Source: a bacterium (GTDB lineage: Bacteria; Bacillota_I; Bacilli_A; Mycoplasmatales; Mycoplasmoidaceae). From it: 64,000 nt of DNA. Shown piece by piece: positions 54,001 to 57,301 of this stretch; position 1 is the stretch's first letter, and each line of letters opens with the position of its first letter. Below the pieces are notes generated by a model. It worked only from the letters and a program-made list of their open reading frames with translations. It made no database searches and was not told the origin of the DNA. The stretch covers positions 62,001-126,000 of the forward strand of contig JAFSMC010000001.1 of the NCBI GenBank assembly GCA_017448105.1, in the 5' to 3' direction. The position numbers and the translations under genes were made by a program.

Positions 54001-55310
54001 AAAACTTTTTGATAAATACGTTCAGAAATTCTTAATTTATGGTTTAGTTTAGCTCTACCTGCTGAAGATAAATCAAAATATTTCTTTTCAAGGAAATGAC
54101 GTAAGAAAAAATCTTGATAACAGAAATCTTTGTTTTTCAAACTAATACTTTCAATTGAACGTTTTGAAACACCCAATTGATTCATAATATCCATGGCTGC
54201 TTTTTCAGTAATAATTTTATCTAATTGATCATTGATTTCTTCTTTAAAATTGTCAAGTTCTTCTCTAAGTACTTGTAAATCATGTGGAACACATTTTAGT
54301 CCTGATTTTTCATATTCAGCTCAACGTGTATCATAAATTCGACGTTTTTTAATTTCAACAGCTTTCAATTTTAAATAGTCAGCAACTAATGCTCTTAATT
54401 TGTGATCGATTCAAACACCAGTGTGTTTAACATTAGCATTTTTGTTATCTTCAATTGATTTACGGATTTTTTTAATTTCATCATTTTCCATGATAGTTTC
54501 ATGAGTATAACAACCATTGAACTTAGAAGAAATAGATTTCTTAATTCCATCAGCAGTTAATGTTTTAGTAATAGTATGAGATTCTTTACCAAAAATATCT
54601 CGGATTTGTTTTTGACTAAAACCAATAGCTTTAAGTAATTGTGTTGCTGAGAAAGTTTCCGTAGATTCAGAAGTTGAATTTTTGACAATGACTTTAATTA
54701 AACTATTATCATGGTCACGATAATCGATATAAAAATTCATCATTGTCCCTTTTGAAGGTAACAATTCACAAATATATCCTTCTACTACTTTTTTCTTTCT
54801 AGCTAATTTAATTTGTGATTTAGTTAGGATATAAGCCCCAGGACTACGCACAATTTGAGAAATAACAAATTTTTCTGTTCCATTAATGATAAAAGTTCCA
54901 CTATTGGTCATCATAGGAATTTTGGCAAAAAAGACACCATCATGAGGGTTTTTATCTTTTTTAGAAGACTTTTGTCTTTTAATTTCGCCTGTATCTTTAT
55001 TAACAAGTTCTAAATCAACATATAACACCTTACCATAAGTTTGAGATTTGTATCTTGCTTCTTCTTCAGTAAATTTACCATCATAAAATTTAATTCCTTT
55101 GTATCTTACTTCGTAAGATAAATTTTTAGGGTGATTAATTGGAAAATACATTTCAATTAATTTTGGTAAATCATTTTTTAAAAATTGTTCATAAGATTTT
55201 TTTTGTATTTCCAATAAATTCGGACCATCAAAATTAACAGGTTGCTTATTGTAGTCTCTACGTGTAACTAAATGTGCAATTTCCCTGTCAACAAATCTAC
55301 TTTTTCCCAC
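51042..55310 (-). CDS. rpoB: RNA polymerase beta subunit
   Basis: Catalytic subunit of 1422 aa. It starts at a GTG (55310) supported by AAGGAG 9 nt upstream. The rifampicin pocket reads [21 protein letters not shown], with Asn (codon 53369-53367) where E. coli has His526. Asn at this place is the known basis of natural rifampicin resistance in mollicutes. Other landmarks are [20 protein letters not shown] and [12 protein letters not shown]. The C-terminus adds an acidic Asp/Glu tail ([11 protein letters not shown]). In-frame TGA codons encode Trp. Confidence 0.98.
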
Positions 55311-55451: not shown

Positions 55452-57301
55452 TTATTCTTTTATTTTATTTTGTTTTTTTCAAAGTTCAGTTTTAGAAACC
55501 ATTTCGTATCTAAAATCATATTTTTCAAAATGATATTCTTTAAAAGATTCATCATACCCAACTTTTGTCTTAATTCATGCACTAAAATATATCACAGTAT
55601 ACAAAAACAATGGTGCATTTATGAACAAGTACAAACATAATACGGCAACACGAATACTTTCAAAATTATTTAACAAGTAAATACTAGTGAAAATATATAA
55701 AATGGTTGTTACTAAAATGATTAAAAATTGTGATCAACAGCTTTTAAAATAAGGTGCTCAATTAAATTTAGCTAAATTTGTAGATTTTTTGTTACAAATT
55801 TAAAAGCAAATGAATTCTTTTTTACCTTTCTCTTTTTAAAAAGCGAATAGATAACAATGTGAAAAATACGATGGTGCCATAGAGCTGTTTCTATAAACAA
55901 TGCGAATAAGAAAAACTGGAATAAAATTTTAATTGGTAACTTATAGTAAATAATGAATGATAAAAAAATCAAAATATAGAAGATCGCACATACAAACCAA
56001 AATAGTATTGTCAAAGAATTTATTTTAATAACTAATGGTTCCAAATTACTATCATTTAAAAGAATTATTCAAATAATACTTTTAAAAATAAAAAGAAAAT
56101 ATTGAACTGGCATGATTACAGTAATGAATAAATACATACTTTTAAAAGCTAATGCAGCATTTTTTTCTGCAAATTTTCCTGGAGCAACATTTCTTTGAAG
56201 AAAAATATCACCTGTGTGTCACTTCAATTTTTGATTTTTTATTCCAATAATTGTTTGAGGAGACAACTTCGCAGAAAAACTATAGCAATCAGTGTAAACT
56301 ATCATATTGTTTTTTGTCCATCAAAAACCCCTTGCTGCATCACAAACAGTACATTCAATTTCTTCTAATGGAATTTGTGCTAATGAGGAAACTTTATACA
56401 TAGCACATCAACCATTTACAAGTGTTGAATTCGTACTATTAAACATACCAGAACCAGTACCAAATGTTTCATTGTATTGTGAAAATTTTGAATATAAATA
56501 GCTTAAAACATTTCTCGCACCATAAAAACTACCATTGGCAATTACACAAGCTATTTTTGCATTATTAATTAATGGTGATTTAAAATAGCAAAGAGCATTG
56601 TAAACAAAATTTGGAGTAACAATACTACTTGAATCATTTTCAAAGATGTAATCATATTGATGCCCATACTTTGAAAGAAAGTAATAAATATTACCAATTT
56701 TAGTGGGATGAGCTTTTTTATGATTAGGATCACGCTGCAATAAGTGAAAATTATGCGATTTACAAAAAGCTTTAATTTCTTGTTGTATTTCTGGTTTAGA
56801 AGAATCATCAATAATTCATATATCAATATTTTGATATGTTTGTTTTGCAGTTTGCAAAATAGTGTTAGGAAGAAAATCGTTGCATACTGGAATAAGCATA
56901 ACGACTTTATCCTTCCATCTTTTTGAATCAACACAAGAATTAATAATTTTAGCTTGTTCATTAAGTAAATGTGGATATCATTTTTTATAAGTCAAATACG
57001 TAATTGATACTCTAAATATGAGATAAAGAGAAATTGCAATACATAACAATTCAAAAATAAGCAACAAAATAAAAATAACAATAGCAGTTTTTTTACCAAT
57101 AGTTATTCCATTACTAACTAAATTTTCAATGATAATTTGCAAATTTGAACTATGGCTATTTTTATAATTAAAAATATCTGGATGCAAAAAAATAAATAAG
57201 AAAACACTAATGCTTATAAAAACTGCAAGGATTAGAGCTATAAAGTTGTATTTGTTTAATCTATTAGTTTTTTTATTTAAAAAAAATTTTTCATTATTCA
57301 T
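55452..57301 (-). CDS. Membrane glycosyltransferase (GT2), interrupted by a -1 frameshift
   Basis: A multi-pass processive-type family 2 glycosyltransferase. It has two N-terminal helices, then a cytosolic GT-A domain with VVMLIPVCND, IDIWIIDDSS and IFENDSSS, a QKLKWHTGD motif resembling Q-x-x-R-W, and C-terminal helices. The frame from ATG 57301 stops at TAG 55774-55772 after about 510 residues. The -1 frame continues without a stop for about 105 residues with two more typical membrane helices and a basic tail to TAA 55452. The full product would be about 616 aa. It likely makes a membrane glycolipid or capsule polymer. The break may be recoding, mutation or phase variation. Confidence 0.75.
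55764..55790 (-). other. Slippery heptamer A AAA AAT with downstream palindrome
   Basis: Within the glycosyltransferase gene the minus strand reads A AAA AAT (55790-55784) in the zero frame, a canonical -1 slip site. Four bases later comes a perfect 16-bp palindrome AAATTTAG/CTAAATTT (55779-55764), which contains the zero-frame TAG. Slipping -1 gives TKKSTNLAKFNW and joins the two halves of the enzyme. Confidence 0.6.

Follow-up and report, generated by a model that had tools for sequence, protein, structure and literature searches.

A split glycosyltransferase gene and its intact paralog in a mycoplasma-like bacterium

A gene for a putative membrane-embedded glycosyltransferase in a mycoplasma-like bacterium is split between two reading frames, and its missing C-terminus remains open and conserved in the -1 frame. 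The split probably, though by no means certainly, reflects a recent insertion or deletion in the DNA of one of two redundant synthase genes, in which case the broken copy would be a young pseudogene or else sit in a reversible off-state. An earlier note on the window (the whole stretch of 64,000 nucleotides analyzed here) had listed programmed recoding, phase variation, a recent pseudogene and a sequencing indel as explanations. Of these options, our results agree best with a recent indel, whether it has left a pseudogene or a reversible state, and programmed recoding falls away, since neither conservation nor stimulators accompany it.

The host genome consists of 505 kb with 72% A+T and 440 ORFs. 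It is a seven-contig, possibly metagenomic assembly, and the one genome of its species that the analysis covered. Relevant features are as follows.

55772 to 57301, minus strand: zero-frame ORF, GT2 synthase-type glycosyltransferase (ORF call; Pfam; NCBIfam match below the cut-off; paralog model and fold search)
55452 to 55799, minus strand: open tail in the -1 frame, the missing C-terminus (57% identity to the C-terminus of the paralog)
55784 to 55790, minus strand: A_AAA_AAT heptamer in the zero frame, likely indel site within the 28-nt overlap of the two frames
55764 to 55779, minus strand: perfect 16-bp palindrome AAATTTAGCTAAATTT, which holds the zero-frame stop (no stable RNA fold)
55467 to 55577, minus strand: 111-bp tract with a perfect match at the 3' end of the paralog gene (G000:C7:138616-138726)
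57268 to 57286, minus strand: T8 (57279-57286) and A7 (57268-57274) tracts, both inside the initial 34 nt of the split gene
G000:C7:138598-140457, in direct orientation to the split gene and 21 kb away: intact paralog in the same genome, 619 amino acids

The split gene and its predicted product

The split gene lies between rpoB (start at 55310) and the divergent prs (57508). With TGA read as Trp, the zero frame extends from an ATG at 57301 to a premature TAG at 55774-55772 and encodes 509 amino acids, in which N-terminal membrane helices are followed by a GT2 domain and then by more membrane helices before the stop. In the -1 frame, 115 codons remain open between 55799 and a TAA at 55454-55452; they encode the final two membrane helices together with the conserved C-terminal end, and the beginning of this frame has no ATG nearby. 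Because both frames are open across a stretch of 28 nt, the shift point must fall inside it. An open, homologous tail of this kind is far above chance expectation. The coordinates that the earlier note gave for the two frames, the TAG, the heptamer and the palindrome were all correct when rechecked, and homology to the C-termini of intact relatives bears out its view of the tail as the remainder of this enzyme.

The zero-frame portion, or head, matches the Pfam model Glycos_transf_2 (PF00535) with an E-value of 5.9e-8 (33.3 bits; cut-off 23.3), and it matches the PgaC_IcaA (NCBIfam) and MdoH models below their cut-offs. When the family profile was compared with the PDB, cellulose synthase was found at an E-value of 2e-6. 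The intact paralog was modeled with AlphaFold2 at a mean pLDDT of 64 (about 80-95 in most of the catalytic core, low in the membrane part); in the model, long helices flank the GT2 domain. In a fold search, this model best matched hyaluronan synthase of a Chlorella virus (E 1.4e-9; TM 0.43/0.51), and BcsA was matched both by the fold of the paralog model and by the family profile. The gene product is probably a membrane-embedded GT2 synthase-type glycosyltransferase, and putatively builds a surface sugar polymer.

The catalytic domain lies wholly ahead of the shift, which maps to a low-confidence loop of the paralog model, and is predicted to be kept in the 509-residue form. Without the two final membrane helices and the conserved end, this form has likely lost polymer export. 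We propose, conditionally, the following course of events. The frame would have been shifted by a recent, single-step change in DNA length, for which the likeliest place is the A6 tract at 55790-55785, the sole homopolymer of at least six in the overlap. The mRNA would then be translated into the 509-residue product, which is probably inactive as a polymer-exporting enzyme, and the intact paralog may make this loss tolerable. Since a short A tract can gain or lose bases a second time, the gene's state may be reversible.

Relatives of the gene and age of the break

The intact paralog is 50% identical to the head of the split gene, and its C-terminus is 57% identical to the tail over 112 amino acids (E 7e-39); the tail has weaker matches to three other intact relatives. 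When 95 genomes of the taxonomic family were searched with a profile, 11 full-length members besides the split gene were identified, with lengths of 607-630 amino acids where measured from ATG. All 11 are in a single frame, and their internal stops are exclusively TGA, whereas the split gene has TAG; the break is thus specific to the split copy. Every significant match to the tail is the C-terminus of an intact member, and none is a separate gene. In the ten relatives inspected at the aligned shift site, the site is a lysine-rich linker with varying A runs, and the A6 tract is not conserved. Slippery heptamers occur at this position in some of the ten and are absent in others, and none needs a shift. 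Plasmid records yielded no near-identical copy and viral contigs no relative, and a scan of genome contigs found only distant Bacteroidota GT2 matches. In another species, two full-length members of the synthase family are arranged in tandem (G070:C13:97313-101041).

The untranslated tail exhibits no sign of relaxed constraint and is as conserved as the head: relative to the paralog, dN is 0.338 and dS 0.77 for the tail, and 0.387 and 0.81 for the head. Part of the similarity between tail and paralog is owed to the 111-bp identical tract, and outside that tract the tail is 37% identical to the paralog, which agrees with the 29% seen in the head over its final 98 aligned codons. When neutral evolution was simulated, about 0.15 substitutions per site sufficed to leave just 5% of such tails open. 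These results imply a break that arose very recently, can revert or does not exist in the living cells, and an old pseudogene is ruled out by the open, constrained tail.

Identity within the 111-bp tract includes synonymous sites and stops a few codons short of the stop of the tail, and most of the 300 bp before the tract has only about 50% nucleotide identity to the paralog. Such identity beside strongly diverged sequence is best read as a probable recent gene conversion between the paralogs. One might combine this observation with the A tracts, and suppose that the two synthases form a small variation system in which one copy is turned off through its A tracts and trades C-terminal sequence with the other by gene conversion, so that switching and recombination would both vary the surface-polymer enzyme; we consider such an arrangement quite improbable.

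Alternative explanations of the split

The explanation that competes most seriously with a recent indel is an error in sequencing or assembly at the A tract, with the true gene intact. We regard this as a real possibility, although a less probable one. Constraint looks complete in head and tail alike, as would be expected of an intact gene that was read wrongly, which counts against an indel, and the disruption is a singleton among the relatives. According to an analysis of 1106 prokaryotic genomes, homology-validated singleton frameshifts are expected to be sequencing errors and not genuine indels (PMC3711429), and under that work's criteria the split gene counts as a singleton and does not form a conserved frameshift cluster. 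The seven-contig, possibly metagenomic nature of the assembly also favors an error. However, among 255 genes that could be compared with a congener, none is frameshifted in the host genome despite a high density of A/T tracts of at least six (5.3 per kb of ORF), which indicates a low error rate; the 95% upper bound on this zero is still about 1% of genes, so that one error among 440 ORFs is possible. In an annotation-free scan of all 440 ORFs for orphan tails, the split gene was the only clear broken gene, and the other candidates were antisense shadows, ordinary neighboring genes or unclear cases. Neither the comparison nor the scan shows a generally error-ridden assembly.

Additional observations were made during these comparisons. 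Relative to genes of the host, the congener genome has two frameshift candidates (G003:C2:1363-3656 and G003:C1:108863-109412). In the host genome, a lipoprotein-like ORF with an Ig-like stretch (L034, G000:C3, 3154-4245) runs into an open frame that, by eye, resembles the C-terminal end of a tyrosine recombinase and is a possible remnant or recombination site.

If the A tract were instead a selected contingency switch, the synthase would be turned on and off within the population. Polysaccharide synthesis is known to phase-vary in mycoplasmas, whose synthase genes have been screened for homopolynucleotide frameshifts (PMC11658790), and poly-A switches with as few as seven or eight bases are known in M. 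hominis vaa and M. fermentans p78, as cited in PMC2831843. Those cited switches are at 5' ends, whereas the site considered here lies at about 81% of the gene's length, is no longer than A6, of which the ORFs hold 1299 exact examples, and is not conserved among relatives. The T8 and A7 tracts at the gene's own 5' end are better candidates for such a switch, and yet they are only suggestive, because 24 of the 440 ORFs carry an A/T tract of at least eight in their first 60 nt. On balance, phase variation at the A6 tract appears unlikely.

Programmed -1 ribosomal frameshifting at A_AAA_AAT would produce the 509-residue form together with a longer one that slightly exceeds 600 residues. This idea, raised in the earlier note, draws on the presence of an in-frame slippery heptamer exactly in the overlap and on the open, conserved tail, but it is unsupported by what surrounds them. 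The 11 homologs are in single frames with no need of a shift. As RNA, the palindrome reaches no stable fold, its minimum free energy being 0 kcal/mol, and the 70 nt from the heptamer onward fold no better than shuffled sequences (z-score 0.07 for pseudoknot-free folds); an Rfam search gave no match. Shine-Dalgarno-like stimulators of the dnaX type are situated about 10-14 nt before the site, and here the closest candidate, AAGG, ends 33 nt before the heptamer. The heptamer itself is commonplace, with 254 in-frame occurrences in 171 of the 440 ORFs of the whole genome. Also, the ORFs contain 2243 in-frame examples of the general pattern X_XXY_YYZ, and 57 perfect 16-bp palindromes are found in 505 kb. 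The heptamer and palindrome at this site are therefore not beyond chance. Moreover, an in-frame slippery heptamer is covered by 25% of the exact A6 tracts that lie in ORFs and by 42% of all A/T tracts of at least six, so an indel in an A tract would often coincide with one. The missing conservation and stimulators lead us to reject programmed frameshifting, to which we assign only a very slight chance.

The notion that the tail is an independent gene behind a native stop deserves virtually no weight. A TTG start at 55676 would yield 74 amino acids, but there is no ATG near the beginning of the tail frame and the tail is separate in no relative. The earlier note had envisaged homologs with a native stop at this position and an independent downstream gene; the relatives are instead intact, and since all significant matches to the tail fall within intact genes, we rejected this candidate.

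A recent indel thus remains our preferred reading. If the break is real, a synthase gene has been caught very early in its loss or in an off-state, alongside an intact copy with which it has shared sequence in the recent past. In a genome with 72% A+T, where these motifs are everywhere, a slippery heptamer and a palindrome are weak evidence of recoding, and a broken synthase copy without a dedicated ribosomal frameshift signal is close to ordinary.

Comparison with known systems

Like the GT2 homopolysaccharide (capsule) synthases of mycoplasmas, whose polymer production phase-varies in several species (PMC11658790), the enzyme has a GT2 domain flanked by N- and C-terminal membrane helices. 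Its catalytic motif variants are ENDSS and QKLKW (read by eye), its product is putatively a sugar polymer, and the likeness is one of domain layout. The fold of the intact paralog's model resembles that of hyaluronan synthase and BcsA, but identity is about 15% and the membrane part of the model is of low confidence. The A6-based heptamer is shared with dnaX-type programmed -1 frameshifting in bacteria; here, however, stimulators and conservation are absent, and the last codon of the heptamer is AAT instead of AAG or AAA. The split itself has a parallel in singleton frameshifted genes in prokaryotes, whether indels or errors (PMC3711429), which are likewise homology-validated, present in one genome only and without a conserved site. 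In contrast to such genes, the split gene resides in an assembly that looks nearly free of other frameshifts.
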